Assembly: GCF_001633165.1 (NCBI RefSeq)
Contig: NZ_CP015418.1
Coordinates: 1,860,001 to 1,924,000 of the forward strand
Direction of reading: 5' to 3'
Length of the DNA: 64,000 nt
Source: Rhodovulum sulfidophilum DSM 1374
GTDB lineage: Bacteria > Pseudomonadota > Alphaproteobacteria > Rhodobacterales > Rhodobacteraceae
In this document: one piece after another, positions 6,738-64,000 of the stretch
Numbering within the stretch: the first letter of the stretch is position 1
Layout: each line of letters opens with the position of its first letter
Made by a program: the position numbers and the translations under genes
The notes under the pieces: model-generated
Told to the model about the DNA's origin: nothing
The model's input: the letters and a program-made list of their open reading frames with translations, nothing else
The model's database searches: none

Positions 6738-7460
6738 TTAGACGAAGAATTGCGCGCCGTTGGCGGAGATCGTCGAGCCGTTGATGAAGCCCGCGTCGTC
6801 GGAGGCGAGGAAGGCCACGCAGCGTGCGATTTCCTCGGGCTCGCCGAGCCGCCCCGTGGGGATCTGCGAAATGATCGCCTCGCGCACCTTTTCGGGCACG
6901 GCCATCACCATTTCCGTCGCGATATAGCCGGGGCAGATCGCGTTGGCAGTGATGCCGGACCGCGCGCCTTCCTGGGCCAGCGACTTGACGATGCCGAGAT
7001 CGCCCGCCTTGGTCGCGGCATAGTTTACCTGACCGAACTGCCCCTTCTGGCCGTTGATCGAACTGATCACGATGACGCGGCCGAACTTGCGCTCGCGCAT
7101 GCCGGGCCAGATCGGGTGCACGGTGTTGAAGACGCCGGTCAGGTTGGTGTCGATCACCTCCTGCCATTGCGTGGGCGTCATCTTGTGGAAGGGGGCGTCG
7201 CGGGTGATGCCGGCATTGGCGACCACGACGTCGATCGGCCCCAGATCCGCCTCGACCTTCGCCAGGCCCTCTTTCGACGCCTCGTAATCGGCGACCGACC
7301 ATTTGTAGGTCGAAATGCCGGTTTCGTCGGTGAATTTCTTCGCCGCCTCGTCATTGCCGCCATAGGTGGCCGCCACGGTATAACCCGCCGCTTTCAGGGC
7401 CTTGCTGATGGCTTCTCCGATACCGCGCGTGCCGCCGGTGACCAGTGCAACTCGTGCCAT
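6738..7460 (-). CDS. phaB: Acetoacetyl-CoA reductase
   Basis: A 240-residue short-chain dehydrogenase that reduces acetoacetyl-CoA to (R)-3-hydroxybutyryl-CoA with NADPH, the second step of polyhydroxybutyrate synthesis. The nucleotide loop TGGTRGIG is at residues 8-15, the NAG motif at 82-84, and the catalytic serine pair near 133-134 is followed by NYAATK at 146-151 (Tyr147, Lys151). Length and the SINGQKGQFGQVNYAATKAG segment match PhaB rather than FabG. It lies 96 bases downstream of phaA in the same direction and ends in an intrinsic terminator. No phaC synthase of the classical type is adjacent. Confidence 0.95.
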   Translation of the reverse strand: MARVALVTGGTRGIGEAISKALKAAGYTVAATYGGNDEAAKKFTDETGISTYKWSVADYEASKEGLAKVEADLGPIDVVVANAGITRDAPFHKMTPTQWQEVIDTNLTGVFNTVHPIWPGMRERKFGRVIVISSINGQKGQFGQVNYAATKAGDLGIVKSLAQEGARSGITANAICPGYIATEMVMAVPEKVREAIISQIPTGRLGEPEEIARCVAFLASDDAGFINGSTISANGAQFFV

Positions 7461-7556
7461 GTTTCCTCCAGATGGAAATGTGGTTCCAAAAATCTCGTTA
7501 CGCAATGAGGATTAGGCGCGCAAGAATATTGCGCGCCCGTTTCAATTTCGTCGCAA

Positions 7557-8732
7557 TCAGGGACGTTCGAGGCACATGGCAACGCCCATGCCGCCACCGA
7601 TGCAAAGGGTGGCAAGGCCCTTCGCGGCGTCCCGGCGCTTCATCTCGAAGAGCAGCGTGTTGAGGATCCGCGCGCCCGAGGCGCCGATCGGGTGGCCGAT
7701 GGCGATGGCGCCGCCATTCACGTTGACGATGGCCGGATCCCAGCCCATGTCCTTGTTGACCGCGCAGGCTTGGGCGGCGAAGGCCTCGTTGGCTTCGACC
7801 AGGTCGAGATCCTCGACCTTCCAGCCGGCCTTTTCCAGCGCCTTGCGCGAGGCCGGGATCGGACCGGTGCCCATGATCGAGGGATCGACCCCGGCGGTGG
7901 CGTAGGAGGCGATCCGCGCCAGCGGTTCCAGCCCGCGCTTCTCGGCCTCGTCGGCTGTCATCAGGAGCACGCCGGCGGCGCCGTCATTTATGCCGCTGGC
8001 ATTGCCCGCGGTGACCGAGCCGTCCTTGGCGAAGGCCGGACGCAGCTTCTGCATCGACTCGAGCGTAGCGCCGTGGCGGATGTATTCGTCGGCCTCGACG
8101 ATGGTGTCGCCCTTGCGGCCCTTGACCGTGACCGGCACGATCTCGTCCGTGAACTTGCCGTCCTTCTGCGCGGCCTCGGCCTTGTTCTGGCTGGCCAGGG
8201 CGAATTCATCCTGCATGTCGCGGCTGATCTGCCATTGTTCGGCCACGTTCTCGGCGGTCTGGCCCATGTGATAGCCGTTGAAGGCGTCCCACAGCCCGTC
8301 CCGGATCATCGAATCGATGAACTTGACATCGCCCATCTTGTGACCCGCGCGCAGATGCGCGACATGCGGGCTCAGCGTCATGTTCTCCTGGCCGCCGGCG
8401 GCGATGATGGCGGCGTCGCCCAGCTGGATATGCTGCGCGGCCAGCGCGACCGAGCGCAGGCCCGAGCCGCAGACCTGGTTGATCGACCAGGCGGCGGATT
8501 CGATCGGGAAGCCCGCATTGACATGGGCCTGACGGGCCGGGTTCTGACCCTGACCCGCTGTCAGCACCTGGCCGAGAATGGTTTCCGAGATGTCGGATTT
8601 GTCGATGCCCGCGCGCGCGACGAGCGCTTCGAGCATCGTCCGGCCGAGTTCATGGGCCGGAACGGTCGCGAACGCGCCGTTGAAGCTGCCGACCGCGGTT
8701 CGGGCGGCAGAAACGATGACGACATTGGTCAT
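7557..8732 (-). CDS. phaA: Acetyl-CoA acetyltransferase (beta-ketothiolase)
   Basis: A 391-residue thiolase that condenses two acetyl-CoA to acetoacetyl-CoA. The acylated cysteine is Cys88 in [10 protein letters not shown]. The C-terminal catalytic histidine is in the [10 protein letters not shown] motif and the second cysteine in [11 protein letters not shown]. Length is exactly typical for PhaA. The ATG at 8732 ([17 protein letters not shown]) is preferred over an upstream in-frame start at 8798, which adds residues not seen in thiolases. It precedes phaB, giving the two-step route from acetyl-CoA to 3-hydroxybutyryl-CoA. Confidence 0.96.
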
Positions 8733-8891
8733 GGGTAGGTCCTTCTCCCCTGAGTGCCTGACAGGGCGACTATAGGGGATGCAGATACGGACTTGCACCC
8801 CCGCCGAAGGCCGGAATGCCGCGGGCAGGCGGGTTTCGGCGCGGCGCCGCGCCGCAGCATATTTGGCGGGGCGACAGGGGGCGGTTGCGGG

Positions 8892-57396: not shown

Positions 57397-57452
57397 CCGA
57401 CGCCCCCGGACCGTCTGTCCGGGCGGACGCCACGGCTTTGTCATCTCTGTCG

Positions 57453-57506
57453 GTTATGCTGCAGGTGCAAAAGGATTCGGGGCGCGTTATGCTGCGGGTG
57501 CAAAGG
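57453..57506. promoter_or_regulatory. Tandem 20-bp direct repeat upstream of the FabI-like operon
   Basis: Two copies of GTTATGCTGCRGGTGCAAA begin at 57453 and 57486, 33 bases apart, or about three DNA turns. The second copy ends 30 bases before the operon start codon. They contain TGC and TGCA half-sites, reminiscent of recognition sequences of PHA regulator PhaR in relatives, which is a memory-based and tentative link. Their position suits a cooperative operator of the operon. Confidence 0.6.
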
Positions 57507-57534
57507 CATGAGCCGCTGTGGTTTAGGAGCATCC

Positions 57535-58299
57535 ATGTTTTCACTTGAAGGCCAGACGGCGCTGATCGTCGGGATCGCGAATGACAAGTCCATCGCCTGG
57601 GGTGCGGCGCGCGCGCTCAGGGCTCAGGGGGCCAGGCTTGCGATCACCTATCTGAATGAAAAGGCTGAAGCTTTCGTCCGGCCCCTGGCCGAGGAGGTCG
57701 GCGCGGAGATCTTCATGCCGCTTGATGTGTGCAACGAGGCCGAGATGGATGCGGTCTTCGCCGAGATCGGGGCGCGCTGGGGGCGGCTCGACACCGTGCT
57801 GCATTCGATCGCCTTCTGTCCGCGCGACGATCTGCATGGGCGTGTTGTCGACTGCTCTGCCGAGGGGTTCTCGCTGGCCATGGATGTTTCGGTGCATTCC
57901 TTCCTGAGAATGATCCGGAAGGCCGAGCCGCTGATGCCCGACGGGGGGACCTGCATGACCGTGTCCTTCGCGGGCGCGACGCGGGTGGTCGAACATTACA
58001 ATATCATGGGGCCGGTCAAGGCGGCGCTGGAATCGACGGTGCGCTACGTGGCGGCCGAGCTGGGGCCGAAAGGGATCTCGGTGCATGCGCTGTCGCCCGG
58101 GCCGCTGGCGACGCGCGCGGCCTCGGGGATCGCCGAATTCGACGAATTGCTCGACGCCGCCGCCGAGCGCGCGCCGATCCATCATCTGGCCACGATCGAG
58201 GATGTCGGGGCCTATTGCGCATTCCTCGCCAGTCGCGAGGCCAAGAACGTGACGGGGGGCGTCCACGCCATAGATGGCGGTTATTCCATCATCGGCTGA
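57535..58299 (+). CDS. FabI-like enoyl-[acyl-carrier-protein] reductase
   Basis: A 254-residue short-chain dehydrogenase of the FabI type. The [11 protein letters not shown] segment binds NAD, and the active-site YxxxxxxK is in [12 protein letters not shown] (Tyr155, Lys162). The first catalytic tyrosine of FabI (Tyr146 in E. coli) is Phe145 here ([13 protein letters not shown]). FabI reduces enoyl-ACP in fatty-acid synthesis. A paralogue with this altered residue next to DUF3141, Pta and AckA genes may act on another enoyl thioester. The ATG at 57535 follows TAGGAGCATCC; a longer in-frame opening to 57508 exists. First gene of the operon. Confidence 0.85.
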
Positions 58300-58310
58300 A
58301 GGAGACGACC

Positions 58311-60842
58311 ATGGATATGCATGTGGAAAGCCGCTCGGACGATGACCCCGCCGACGTGATGCGGGCCCTGATCTGGGGCTCGGGGGGGATGGCTCAGGAC
58401 CGGCTTGCGCTGATGAGTGCACTGGCAGGCGGGTCGCTGGAGAATGCGGACCTGATCCGAGAGGTTGCGGGCCGCCACGGCAACAGGATGCTCGACACCC
58501 ATTCGACGCGGACGCGCGAGCTGCTGGCTCAGATGCGGCGGCTGATGGAGGCCGCCCGGAATTCGAAGAAGGAGATGACGCGGGGGCAGCTTGTCGCGGA
58601 TTATCGCGACTATCTGCGCGATGCGGGCGAGCGCTGGCTGCTGACGATGGATGCGCTGCGGGCAAGGGGCGACATCTTTCGCGAGCACGAGGCCGAAGGC
58701 TGCCCGCCGGTCCTGGCCTATCGCTACGAGGTGGTGATCGACGGGACGGATCTGCCGCATCCCTGCAACTACCAGCTTCTGCGCATCGAGCCGCCCGAGG
58801 GGGTCGAGCTTCGTCCAGACAAGCGGCCCTATGTGATCATCGATCCGCGGGCCGGGCATGGTGGCGGTATCGGCGGGTTCAAGCCCGACAGCCAGGTGGG
58901 CGTGGCGTTCAAGGGCGGCCATCCGGTCTATTTCGTGTCCTTCAGGCGCGATCCGCTGCCGGGGCAGACGCTGGCCGATGTCTGCCGCGCCGAGGCGGAA
59001 TTCGTGCGCGAGGTGACCCGGCTGCATCCGGCGGCGGCCAAGCCGGTGGTGATGGGCAATTGTCAGGGCGGATGGGCGACGCTCTTGCTGGCCGCGACCA
59101 ATCCCGACCTGACCGGGCCCATCGTGTTGAACGGCGCGCCGGTCGCGACCTGGTCGGGGGAGGTCGGTCGGCATCCGATGCGCTACAATGCCGGGATCCT
59201 CGGCGGCGCGATGCAGCCGATGCTGTGGTCGGATCTGGGCGGCGGCCGCTTCGACGGCGCCAATCTGGTGATGAATTTCGAGCTGCTGAACCCGAGCCGC
59301 AACTACTTTCGCAAGTATTACGATATCTTCCGCGACATCGACCAGCCCGGCATGCGTCAGCGCTTTCTCGATTTCGAGCGCTGGTGGGGCGGCTTCTTCA
59401 CCCTGAACGAGGCCGAGATCCGCTGGGTCGTCGAACAGCTTTTCGTCGGCAACCGTCTGACCAGGAACACCGCCATGCTGGAGCCGGGGCGGCCGGTCGA
59501 CATCAAGGCGATCCGGGCGCCGATCATCGTCTTTGCCAGCCAGGGCGACAATATCACACCACCGCAACAGGCGCTGAACTGGGTCCTCGACGCCTATGCC
59601 GGGGTCGAGGAAATCCGCATCCGCGGTCAGCGGATCGTCTATATGGTGCATGAGGAGGTGGGCCATCTGGGCATCTTCGTCTCGTCTAAAATCGCCAGGA
59701 AGGAACATACCGAGGTCTCCTCGACGCTGAGGACCATCGAGGCGCTGGCCCCGGGGCTTTACGAGATGCGGATCGATGCCGCCGAGGGCCGGGGTGAGGA
59801 TCGCGAGTTCCTCGTCAGCTTTGCCGAACGCAGCTTTGCCGATCTCGAGCAGATCGCGGGCGGGCGCGAGGAGGAGGCAGCCTTTGCGGCGGTCTCGCGG
59901 ATGAGCACCATCCAGTCCGAGATTTACGATACCGCGGTTCGGCCTCTGGTCCGGGCCTCGGTGAATGCACAGGCCGCCGAGACGACGCGGCGGCTGCATC
60001 CCTTGCGGGTGCAACGAACGGCGATGTCCTCGGTCAATCCCTTGCTGGCGCCGGTCGCCGCCGCCGCCGGGCGGCTGCGCGAGGAGCGGCATCCGGCGGC
60101 GATCGACAATCCGTTCCTCTGGGCCGAGCGCTTCGCCGCCGACATGACGGAACAGTGGATCGACTTCGGGCGGGATATGCGGGATGCTTGGGTCGAGATG
60201 AGCTTCTTTGCGATGTGGAATTCGCCCTGGGCCCGGGCTTTCGGTGCCCCGGAGGCCGTGCGGCGGACCCGAAAGACGACCGCCGAGCTGCGCGCGATGC
60301 CGATTGTGGAGACCGTGCTTTCGCATGTCGATCAGGGCGGTTTCGTCGAGGCGGTGATCCGGATGCTGATCCTGCTGGCCGAAAGCCGCGGTTCGGTCCG
60401 GCGCGACCGGTTGGAACGCTCGGCATGGGTGCTGAACCATGACGAGCCCTTCGCCTCGCTGACAGCGGAATGCCGCGCGCGGATCCTGCATGAGCAGACC
60501 CTGATCGCGACCCATGATCCGGAGGGCGCGATCGGGACATTGCCCTGTCTTCTGCGCGATCCGGAGGACCGGGAGCTTGCCGCGCGCGTCGTGCAATATG
60601 TGCCCGGGCCCATCGCGGAGATGGCGCCGCATACGCTGGAGATGCTGCAGCGGTTCCGCGCGGTTCTTGGCCTGTCGCCGCTTGCCGAGGACGTGGTCGA
60701 GGACCCGCTGGCCTCGCATGGGGCCGTCGTCCATGGTGCCGATATGGCGCGGCCCGGATCCGCGGCCGCGGGTGTCCCCGGTGCCGAAGCTGGCGTCGGA
60801 GACGCGCCGAAGACCGTTTCAGAAAGAAAGACGTCCGAATGA
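58311..60842 (+). CDS. DUF3141 protein with PhaC-like alpha/beta-hydrolase core
   Basis: An 843-residue protein. Residues about 150-460 are an alpha/beta-hydrolase fold with the nucleophile elbow [13 protein letters not shown] (Cys251), the acid in [11 protein letters not shown] (Asp413) and the histidine in [13 protein letters not shown] (His452). A Cys-Asp-His set with a G-x-C-x-G-G elbow is that of polyhydroxyalkanoate synthases rather than ordinary esterases. The C-terminal 380 residues are helical, with no known domain to me. The family is recorded as DUF3141 and recurs beside FabI, Pta and AckA genes. It follows FabI by 11 bases and overlaps the next gene by 4. Whether it polymerizes, hydrolyses or transfers acyl-CoA is unknown. 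Confidence 0.85.
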
Positions 60843-62248
60843 AGATCACGGAGAACCGCACCTTCGACGAAATCTCGGTGGGAGACACCGCCCAAATCGT
60901 CCGGATCTGTTCCGAAGACGATTTCTATGTGTTCGCCAGCGCCTCGGGCAATTACAACCCGATGCATCTGGCGCGGCTGGATGGCGACGGCGACGGTGTG
61001 GATGAAGCCCTCGCGCCCGCGATCTGGGAAGCGTCGCTGATCTCGGCGGTCCTGGGCAATCTGCTGCCCGGCCCCGGAACGCTTTATCGCAGTCAGAGCC
61101 TGGTCTTCCACGAGCGTGCCCAGGCCGGGGACGAGCTTCTGACCCGGGTGACGGTCGTCGAGAAGCGTCCGCCGAACCGGATCGTCCTGGAGACCCGGGT
61201 CGAGCGCTGTTCGGACGGGGCGCTGGTGCTGGACGGCGAGGCCGAGGTCAAGGCGCCGCCGAAGAAGCTGGTGTTCAACGATCTGGAAATCCCCGGCCTG
61301 GTGATCGAACGCCACCGGCATTTCGATGAGCTGATCGACCGGGCCGAACCGCTGGCGCCCCTGCCGACGGCGGTGGTCTGTCCCGAAGAGCCGCGCGCGC
61401 TGGGCGGGGCGCTGCTAGGGGCGCGTCACACGATCATCGCGCCGATCCTCGTCGGCGATCCTGACAAGATCGCGGCGGCGGCGGCCGAGATCGGCGCCTC
61501 GCTTGCCGGGATCGAGATTGTCGAGGCGGCCGATCACGTAACGGCGGCCCATCTTGCGGTCGATCTGGTGGCGGGCGGCCGGGCGGCGGCGCTGATGAAG
61601 GGGCATCTGCATACCGATGTTCTGCTGCGGGCTGCGCTTCGCAAGGAGAACGGGCTGCGCGCCGGGCGGCGGTTCACCCATGTCTTCGTGATGGATGTGC
61701 CGGGGGTGCCGCATCCGCTGATGGTGACCGATGCCGCGATCAACATCGCGCCCGATCTGCGCACCAAGGTCGATATCGTGCAGAATGCCATCGATCTGGC
61801 GATTTCGATCGGGATCGAGGTGCCGAAGGTGGGCGTGCTGTCGGCGGTCGAGACGGTGAATCCCGACATTCCGTCCTCGCTCGATGCGGCGCTCTTGTCG
61901 AAGATGGCCGAGCGCGGCCAGATCCGGGGTGGCATGGTCGACGGGCCGCTGGCGATGGACAACGCGGTCGATCTGACGGCGGCGCGCACCAAGGGCATCA
62001 CCTCGCAGGTGGCGGGGCGGGCCGAGGTTCTGGTGGTGCCCAATCTGGATGCGGGCAACATGCTGGCCAAGCAACTGGCCTATATCAGCCATGCCGAAGG
62101 TGCGGGCGTCGTGATGGGGGCGAAAGTGCCGATTATACTCAATTCGCGGTCGGATGACGACAAGGCGCGGCTGGCCTCCTGCGCGGTGGCGACGCTGCAC
62201 AATGCCCGGCTGAACGGGCTGATCCCGGCCCAGCGGGCGGCGGAGTAG
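60839..62248 (+). CDS. MaoC-like / phosphate acetyltransferase fusion protein
   Basis: A 469-residue two-domain protein. The N-terminal hot-dog domain (about 1-150) is of the MaoC/(R)-specific enoyl-CoA hydratase type, but the catalytic motif S-G-D-x-N-P-x-H reads SGNYNPMH (Asn38, His43). The second conserved H-G is replaced in [15 protein letters not shown]. The C-terminal part (about 165-469) is a phosphate acetyl/butyryltransferase, with [11 protein letters not shown] and [29 protein letters not shown], and appears intact. The annotated family is bifunctional enoyl-CoA hydratase/phosphate acetyltransferase. It would convert acyl-CoA plus phosphate to acyl phosphate for the adjacent acetate kinase. 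The altered hydratase site may leave only ligand binding. Confidence 0.87.
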
Positions 62249-62252
62249 GACC

Positions 62253-63461
62253 ATGTCGCATGTTCTGACCCTGAATGCGGGCTCTTCCTCGCTGAAATTC
62301 GGCTTTTTCCGTTTGAACGGCGCGGCCGACGATCCGGACCCGCGCATCGTCGGCTCGGTCGAGCGGATCGGCACGGGCGAGCGTGCCCGGCTCAAGGCCA
62401 AGCGCCAGGACGGGATGGTGCTGGTCGACCGCGAATTCGGCCGCAACCATGTGGCCGACCACGAAACGGCCCTGGCCCGGGCCGTCGAGTTCCTGAAGGA
62501 ACAGCGCCCGCAGGCCGAGCTTGACGCGGTCGGGCACCGGGTGGTGCATGGCGGGCCCGATTACGACATGCCGGTCGAGCTGACGGGCGAGGTGATGGCG
62601 CGGCTTGCGCAGTTCGAGCCGCTGGCACCGCTGCACCAGCCGCATAACCTGGCGGGCGTGCGCGCGGCGCTGAAGCTGTTCCCCGAGGCCGTGCAGCTGG
62701 CCTGTTTCGACACCGCCTTTCACCGCAACCACCCCTGGGTCAACGACACTTTCGCCATTCCGCGCAAGTATTACGATCAGGGCGTGCGGCGCTACGGGTT
62801 CCATGGGCTCAGCTATCAGTACATTTCCGAGACCTTGCGCGAGACGGCGCCGCATCTGCATATGGGCCGCACCGTCGTCGCCCATCTGGGCAATGGCGCC
62901 TCGATGTGCGGGCTGATGGGCGGGCAGTCTCGGGCCTCGACCATGGGGTTCACGGCGCTTGACGGGTTGCCGATGGGCTCGCGCTGCGGTCAGCTCGACC
63001 CGGGCGTGCTCCTGTACATGCTGAGAAGCGAGGGCATGACGCCGGCCGAGATCGAGGACGAGCTGTATCGCAAGTCGGGGCTTCTGGGGCTGTCGGGGCT
63101 GTCGAACGACATGCGGACGCTCGAGGCCGCGGGTACCGAGGAGGCGCGCCAGGCGATCGACTATTTCGTGTTCCGGATCCGCCGCGAATTGGGCGGTCTG
63201 GTCGCGGCGCTGGGCGGGATCAGCACCATGGTGTTCTGTGGCGGGATCGGCGAGAATTCGGTCCTGATCCGCGAGAAGGTCTGCACCGGTATGGGGTGGA
63301 TCGGCATGGAACTGGACGAAACGCGCAACATGCGCAACGAGCGGATCATCTCGACCGATTTCAGCCGGGTGCGCATTCTGGTCATTCCCACCGACGAGGA
63401 GATCGTGATCGCGCGGGCCGCGCGCGACATGCTGGCGCGGCGCGCTGCGGACGCGGCGTGA
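62253..63461 (+). CDS. ackA: Acetate/propionate kinase
   Basis: A 402-residue acetokinase. The N-terminal LTLNAGSSSLKFGFF loop, GHRVVHGG, the ACFDTAFH catalytic Asp region, RRYGFHGLSYQYI, HLGNGASMCG and GGIGENS segments are all present. It makes ATP and acetate (or a longer short-chain acid) from the acyl phosphate supplied by the preceding phosphotransacetylase. It begins 4 bases after that gene. Substrate chain length is open in this context. Confidence 0.93.
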   Translation: MSHVLTLNAGSSSLKFGFFRLNGAADDPDPRIVGSVERIGTGERARLKAKRQDGMVLVDREFGRNHVADHETALARAVEFLKEQRPQAELDAVGHRVVHGGPDYDMPVELTGEVMARLAQFEPLAPLHQPHNLAGVRAALKLFPEAVQLACFDTAFHRNHPWVNDTFAIPRKYYDQGVRRYGFHGLSYQYISETLRETAPHLHMGRTVVAHLGNGASMCGLMGGQSRASTMGFTALDGLPMGSRCGQLDPGVLLYMLRSEGMTPAEIEDELYRKSGLLGLSGLSNDMRTLEAAGTEEARQAIDYFVFRIRRELGGLVAALGGISTMVFCGGIGENSVLIREKVCTGMGWIGMELDETRNMRNERIISTDFSRVRILVIPTDEEIVIARAARDMLARRAADAA

Positions 63462-63740: not shown

Positions 63741-64000
63741 ATGAAACGGGCACTGAAACCGGCCGAGGCCGCCGAGATGATCCCCGAGGGTGCGGTGCTG
63801 CTGATCGGCGGTTTCATGGGGGTGGGCGCGCCGCACCGTCTGATCGACGCACTGGTCGCGCGCGGGGTGGGCGGGTTCACCGTCATCGCCAACGATACCG
63901 TGCGGCCGGGCCAGGATATCGGCAAGCTGATCGACGCGCGGCTGGTGGCGAAATGCATCGTCAGCCATATCGGCCTGAACCCCGAGACCCAGCGCCAGAT
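63741..64000 (+). CDS. atoD: 3-oxoacid/acetate CoA-transferase subunit A (3' end outside window)
   Basis: The visible 86 residues begin MKRALKPAEAAEMIPEGAVL and contain LLIGGFMGVGAPHRLIDAL, the glycine-rich CoA-binding signature of family I CoA-transferase alpha subunits. Such enzymes move CoA between short-chain acids and acetate or acetoacetate. The DIGKLIDARLVAKCIVSHIGLNPETQ part continues to the window end, so the gene is cut, and the beta subunit should follow. Which acid pair it uses (acetate, butyrate, acetoacetate or succinate) is not decided. Confidence 0.85.
   Translation, partial: MKRALKPAEAAEMIPEGAVLLIGGFMGVGAPHRLIDALVARGVGGFTVIANDTVRPGQDIGKLIDARLVAKCIVSHIGLNPETQRQ

Follow-up and report, generated by a model that had tools for sequence, protein, structure and literature searches.

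Gene organization of the operon

We analyzed a stretch of 64,000 nt from the genome of Rhodovulum sulfidophilum DSM 1374 (contig NZ_CP015418.1, positions 1,860,001 to 1,924,000 of the forward strand), hereafter called the window, near the right end of which lies an operon that includes a large protein of the DUF3141 family. As a first-pass annotation made from the DNA letters had described, its four genes are closely packed, with gaps or overlaps of 4–11 bases, and all are intact and lie on the + strand:

57535..58299, + strand: fabI, FabI-type enoyl-thioester reductase of the PRK07533 group (PRK07533, 422 bits against a cut-off of 337; Y-x6-K kept)
58311..60842, + strand: gene of the DUF3141 protein, 843 aa (PF11339, 734 bits), separated from fabI by 11 bases
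60839..62248, + strand: MaoC-like domain (Asn for the catalytic Asp) fused to a phosphate butyryl/acetyltransferase domain (PRK08190, 624 bits), overlapping the DUF3141 gene by 4 bases
62253..63461, + strand: ackA, acetate/propionate-family kinase AckA (HRVVHGG motif), after a 4-base gap

The profile match and the Y-x6-K motif place the first product in the FabI family, and its start was assigned to the ATG at 57535 rather than to the upstream ATG at 57508 because AGGAG precedes the former. This FabI is the third of the genome, the other two being 44–45% identical to it, and the kinase is the second AckA-family gene, so that the gene set is accessory rather than housekeeping. The best named relatives are found in R. 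visakhapatnamense (83% identity) and R. kholense (82% identity).

DUF3141 as a relative of PHA synthase

Judged from its sequence, the DUF3141 protein is a homologue of the PhaC-family cysteine acyltransferases, to which the polyhydroxyalkanoate (PHA) synthases belong. In a predicted model, a helical hairpin (residues 28–129) is followed by a PhaC-like alpha/beta hydrolase (139–477) and a helical C-terminal part (509–785), and the best solved matches of this model, as well as the nearest active-site contexts, are those of PhaC. The Cys-Asp-His set that had been pointed out in the first-pass annotation corresponds to C251/D413/H452, a triad placed in PhaC-type contexts. Lack of these residues across the family had been named beforehand as the observation that would overturn the pathway idea; the triad was present in 28 of the 32 rows found with a hidden Markov model, including all 28 ordinary rows, and the remaining four comprise a single split gene, present as two pieces (the Cys region lies outside both), and two paralogs without Cys and His, which are described below. 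Another set of relatives gave 26 of 26, a biased figure since the search pattern itself held the Cys box.

Class I and III PhaCs share with DUF3141 the core fold, the Cys box and the Asp and His contexts, whereas DUF3141 has additional N- and C-terminal helical parts. Alignment of DUF3141 to a class I PhaC alignment with hhalign gave a probability of 65%, and among the curated PhaC class models only TIGR01836 (class III) matched, with 39 bits against a cut-off of 365; because this score is far under the cut-off, we do not file DUF3141 as a class I–IV PhaC. When the C-terminal part was searched alone, Foldseek gave no match at E 0.001, and sequence and Pfam searches returned nothing except DUF3141 itself. 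The weak best Foldseek rows for the segment encoded at 60282-60704 were PG1108 (2h5n; E 0.13–0.5), which we take to be TerB-like. DUF3141 has already been grouped with PHA synthase by fold (PMC11878206), and its domain has been tied to the class III synthase (PMC8601165).

Recurrence of the gene set

We surveyed 398 genomes of Pseudomonadota, counting DUF3141 matches of at least 140 bits as near-full-length and scoring per genome at most three candidates for PF11339, PRK08190 and PhaC and six for FabI, so that some copies may be missed. DUF3141 was found in 27 genomes. In 18 of these a gene of the phosphate butyryltransferase (Ptb) type lies within 2.5 kb and AckA within 2.5 kb of the Ptb-type gene; FabI is present in the flank of about 5 kb in 18, and all three partners are neighbours in 17 of the 27, in agreement with the expectation that DUF3141 is accompanied by FabI, Pta and AckA in most genomes. 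In G235, Ptb and AckA adjoin DUF3141 and FabI is about 6–7 kb off, and in G274 FabI is the sole partner nearby. CoA-transferase A/B and 3-hydroxybutyryl-CoA dehydrogenase are recurrent further neighbours.

The same set, in the order fabI-DUF3141-MaoC.Pta-ackA, occurs on pMPPM02 of Methylorubrum populi, and it is found reordered on plasmids of Sinorhizobium meliloti and Roseovarius pelagicus. Since the set thus recurs in many genera, as had been stated for alphaproteobacteria in the first-pass annotation, the operon is not a chance cluster, and the possibility that DUF3141 is a random neighbour was rejected on account of the same recurring partners. In two stretches of Rhodobacter capsulatus (L014 and L017) the order is FabI-DUF3141-AckA-CoA-transferase; no Ptb was found in the stretch, and the kinase there is therefore without its usual partner locally. 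On plasmid B of Sinorhizobium americanum (L279), whose gene table is incomplete, no partner of DUF3141 is listed within 7 kb; phasin and 3-hydroxyacyl-CoA dehydrogenase genes are near it.

Association with PhaC and occupation of the PhaC slot

A match to the class I PhaC model with E 1e-60 or better was present in all 27 DUF3141 genomes vs 161 of the 371 others (Fisher p 5.6e-10, with genomes treated without correction for kinship); for this model the match of G235 (E 7.7e-101) is a weak one. Among 82 Ptb-type loci, which comprise those over the cut-off plus some just under it and some with flanks stopping at contig ends, 31 have a PHA-synthase-family gene within 2.5 kb, namely DUF3141 (18 loci), class I PhaC (11 loci in 10 genomes) and a short PhaC/PhaZ-like gene (three loci), one locus having two kinds. 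Two loci (L155 and L159) read PhaC-MaoC.Ptb-AckA, and L158 is the same plus FabI; L246 reads PhaC-FabI-MaoC.Ptb-AckA, and in G241 (L125), from the same genus, DUF3141-MaoC.Ptb-AckA is preceded by FabI and CoA-transferase. Because true PhaC sits beside the same type of phosphotransacylase in 10 other genomes, DUF3141 takes the slot of PhaC. Of the ten PhaCs in such operons, nine group in a clade separate from the main PhaCs (support 100/100), and the tenth, divergently placed in G043, groups with the latter. On the Ptb tree, built with L132 re-cut and with L129 and L211 left out, the DUF3141 label and the PhaC label need five changes each, of which at least two are forced, and both labels are more clustered than shuffled ones.

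The tie of the operon to PHA metabolism, proposed in the first-pass annotation, is thus well supported. The window carries phaA and phaB, as had been noted, together with the start of a CoA-transferase that follows the operon on the same strand (surrounding genome stretch L146):

6741-7505, minus strand: acetoacetyl-CoA reductase
7560-8798, minus strand: thiolase
63741..64000, + strand: start of CoA-transferase subunit A, which ends at 64394 in window numbering (L146 7742-8395)
64394-65047 in window numbering, past the window end, + strand: CoA-transferase subunit B (L146 8395-9048)

The accompanying remark that a classical phaC is missing is true of the window and is an effect of its borders, since the genome holds two PhaCs outside it; the idea of an operon lacking PHA context was rejected for the same reason. 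The second of these PhaCs (L204 5223-7007, G000 C1:421291) belongs to the clade of operon-type PhaCs, and no Ptb was found beside it. This genome also encodes a short PhaC/PhaZ-like protein with an intact triad (L136 5958-7151, G000 C1:4077107), which scores nearly the same with the models of PhaZ (102 bits) and class III PhaC (116 bits), under the cut-off in both cases, and whose relatives adjoin Ptb-AckA in L134 and L135. The neighbour of the L136 gene, taken for a phosphoketolase at one point, is a P-type ATPase.

MaoC-Ptb fusion and kinase

The MaoC part of the fusion scores under its Pfam cut-off (23.5 vs 27). The hydratase-2 motif has a catalytic Asp and a catalytic His; in the SGDxNPxH motif of the window protein the His is kept and Asn stands at the Asp position. 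This Asp column was examined over 47 aligned rows, including L275, from the same contig as L007, and the open reading frame extensions L113 and L232, which are no true fusions: 23 rows have Asn, 18 have Asp (one of these being misaligned) and six have another residue. DUF3141 adjoins 16 of the Asn rows, in four cases as the paralog without Cys and His, and PhaC adjoins none; PhaC adjoins eight of the Asp rows and DUF3141 one. In PhaC-linked fusions the Asp is kept in seven rows; the exceptions are L160, which has Ala, the misaligned L151 and the extension L232. All 16 Asn rows placed in the Ptb tree fall into one clade, so that the change from Asp to Asn is one event rather than many. Because the catalytic Asp is replaced, hydratase activity of this domain is unlikely; a separate MaoC-like gene is present elsewhere in the genome.

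The other half of the fusion had been called Pta (phosphate acetyltransferase). A phosphotransacylase it is, by the profiles PF01515 and PRK08190 of the phosphate butyryl/acetyltransferase family, both over the cut-off, but in sequence it resembles phosphate butyryltransferase more than Pta: with the model of the former the fusion reaches 310 bits, against 59 bits with that of the latter, both under their own cut-offs, and among solved chains a phosphate butyryltransferase comes closest to the domain (228 bits, compared with 51 bits for the best Pta). The operon kinase keeps HRVVHGG, presumably the acetate-kinase pocket, which would favour short acids such as acetate.

Paralogs without Cys and His

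Five genomes of the genus (G003 and G005–G008) hold a DUF3141 paralog that has lost both Cys and His, and Asp is retained at its position in all five:

L138 5041-7173: DUF3141 paralog without Cys and His
L139 5162-7207: the same
L269 85-1956: the same
L270 4836-6707: the same
L271 5276-7333: the same

MaoC.Ptb-AckA lies directly downstream in all four readable cases, the contig ending at L269. Pairwise ratios of nonsynonymous to synonymous substitution (dN/dS) among these paralogs are 0.27–0.43, and the paralog is therefore kept under purifying selection. In G003, G007 and G008 the intact copy sits in FabI-DUF3141-CtfA-CtfB (L008, L005 and L273, respectively), and in G006 the intact DUF3141 adjoins MaoC.Ptb, after which the contig stops (L272); the genome search of G005 gave no intact copy. 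The paralogs suggest that part of the role of DUF3141 is independent of catalysis.

Promoter elements

Upstream of fabI we assigned the following candidate elements:

57427..57444, + strand: Pho-box-like 18-mer (11/14 consensus positions; single-promoter shuffle p 0.06)
57455-57460, + strand: TATGCT, -10-like element, 10 bases after the 18-mer
57457..57504, + strand: two TGCTGCRGGTGCAAA repeats, 33 bases apart, before fabI; candidate boxes (TGC-rich) for the regulator PhaR

Among the 16 promoters examined, ten are of the genus, and in seven of these the best Pho-like match likewise ends 10 bases upstream of TA[TCG]GCT (shuffle p 0.000 to 0.16 per single promoter); a Pho box chosen by eye with different spacing was dropped in favour of this aligned 18-mer. 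A genome scan for TGCTGCNNNTGCA found 30 sites vs 7 for the reversed control, and the pair before fabI is the only one this close. The repeats are kept in the nearest relatives (L003, L004 and L207), and a pair of CTGCN3GCAGC boxes lies between phaC and phaR (L205 6162 and 6191). In Bradyrhizobium, blr3456–3459 rises 7.2-fold in a phaR mutant and has predicted boxes, being reported as PhaR-repressed (PMC10888616); the DUF3141-type operon of S. meliloti is stated to be PhoB-controlled and PhoB-induced (Summers 1999, as cited in PMC8231600).

Related operons in the literature

The route had been presented as possibly uncharacterized; against this, the operon type is already in print for several genera, as is the likeness of DUF3141 to PHA synthase. 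The ORF-pta-ack-fabI operon of S. meliloti, present on two named plasmids, unites DUF3141, phosphate acetyltransferase, kinase and FabI in a single run; it differs in that fabI is last, Pta is about 318 aa without a MaoC fusion, and no CoA-transferase is listed in the 5 kb shown. Group D1 of Burkholderia phaC (phaC, phaJ-pta fusion, ackA, fabI; PMC8231600) and phaC1-fabI-bi-pta-ackA of Halomonas/Cobetia (PMC8686332) share the partner enzymes and a PHA-synthase-family gene in the slot, but have a true PhaC where the window has DUF3141. In Bradyrhizobium diazoefficiens, blr3456–blr3459 (PMC10888616) has the order hypothetical-pta-ackA, like L106–L108, L110 and L112; blr3456 would be a DUF3141 gene by this arrangement, not by its own sequence. 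Our literature search found no paper, within the text available, linking the name DUF3141 to the operon, the loss of the MaoC Asp or the paralogs without Cys and His, and a search on polyhydroxybutyrate (PHB), Ptb and FabI found nothing related.

Proposed role and alternative explanations

We consider it likely that the operon is a PHA-linked module converting acyl-CoA to acid, in which DUF3141 is a PhaC-type enzyme. The most probable role of this module is that of a branch that responds to phosphate and PHB and connects the turnover of PHB with the formation of acid and ATP. DUF3141 at the PHB granule would act on 3-hydroxybutyryl-CoA or PHB with the same covalent Cys chemistry as PhaC, FabI would reduce crotonyl-CoA to butyryl-CoA with NADH, the Ptb-type enzyme and the kinase would yield butyrate and ATP, and the CoA-transferase could move CoA between the acid and acetoacetate. 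Phosphate limitation, through the Pho-like box, and PHB titrating PhaR off the TGC boxes may switch the system on.

Several points weigh against this proposal. The substrates of the operon enzymes (C4 or C2) and the reaction of DUF3141 are predictions, and hydration is probably not encoded by the fusion, whose MaoC domain lacks the catalytic Asp. Eight of the 27 DUF3141 genomes have no partner in the fetched flanks (five in one family, f66; two with stops in the gene, G226 and G292; and G301), FabI-DUF3141 stands without Ptb or AckA nearby in L005, L006, L008 and L009, and on p42d of Rhizobium etli (L277) no partner is listed within 7 kb of DUF3141 in an incomplete gene table. A PHA-synthase-family gene is absent near 51 of the 82 Ptb loci. 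The Pho-like matches are weak singly, five of the 16 promoters (L005, L012, L014, L017 and L127) have no TGC match near the start, and the kinase pocket, as we take it, favours short acids. Finally, the section on Bradyrhizobium granule proteins, apart from the supplementary table, does not mention Blr3456.

For the pathway itself we tentatively prefer the C4 butyrate chemistry, at somewhat less than even confidence, and its main rival is acetate. In this alternative, which has a considerable chance of being right although we lean away from it, the Ptb-type enzyme and the kinase would work on acetyl-CoA and acetate as an overflow or uptake branch that feeds or relieves PHB synthesis, FabI and DUF3141 having side roles. 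The kinase motif, presumably typical of acetate kinase, points this way, but a further AckA-family gene that scores higher for the family is already present in the genome, the Ptb domain resembles butyryl enzymes far more than acetyl ones, and a dedicated enoyl reductase would have no place. The authors of PMC10888616 and PMC8231600 read their own versions as acetate branches. It is somewhat unlikely that DUF3141 is a PHB-mobilizing, thiolytic depolymerase-like enzyme rather than a synthase, with the operon PhaCs running the same reaction backwards. One genome announcement lists a DUF3141 protein as phaZ, a short relative matches PhaZ and class III PhaC almost equally, and the remaining operon genes consume acyl-CoA; however, in its fold and in the surroundings of its active-site residues DUF3141 comes closest to PhaC, and PhaC fills the slot in the sister operons, where no search was aimed at PhaZ.

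Docking could also be the main function. That DUF3141 serves chiefly as a scaffold bringing Ptb-AckA to the granule, with catalysis secondary, would agree with the paralogs without Cys and His upstream of MaoC-Ptb-AckA, with G005, in which such a paralog has no intact companion, and with the long additional helical regions; the triad, intact in every ordinary row, speaks against it, and we rate it as unlikely. PlsX makes acyl-phosphates, and a membrane-lipid branch under phosphate limitation, with saturated acyl groups from FabI and acyl-phosphates from the Ptb-type enzyme, would suit the FabI family membership and the reported PhoB control. We regard it as very improbable, since lipids need no acid kinase and the operon is associated with PhaC and reported PhaR regulation.

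Returning to the PHB-linked module, a more speculative form, which we rate as fairly unlikely, is a fermentation of the storage polymer: granule-bound DUF3141 would exchange chains with CoA, and docked enzymes would dismutate 3-hydroxybutyryl-CoA to butyrate (through FabI) and acetate, so that ATP is gained and redox balance kept with no need of a respiratory acceptor. Docking and catalysis may, in some Rhodovulum, be split over two paralogs, the one without Cys and His being the scaffold. Ilyobacter ferments 3-hydroxybutyrate to acetate and butyrate; this would use similar steps, but it is not known to involve a polymer-synthase-family protein and belongs to an unrelated organism.

DUF3141 is a recurrent protein of rhizobia, purple bacteria and marine Rhodobacterales, and authors writing on this operon or on its PhaC version take the pta-ackA part as acetate metabolism. 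The PhaC slot, together with the PhaR and Pho signals, gives the family a testable job on 3-hydroxybutyryl-CoA and on PHB plus CoA, for which the paralogs without Cys and His provide a natural separation of scaffold from catalyst. It also raises the physiological question of whether cells short of oxygen or phosphate can gain ATP by fermenting PHB.

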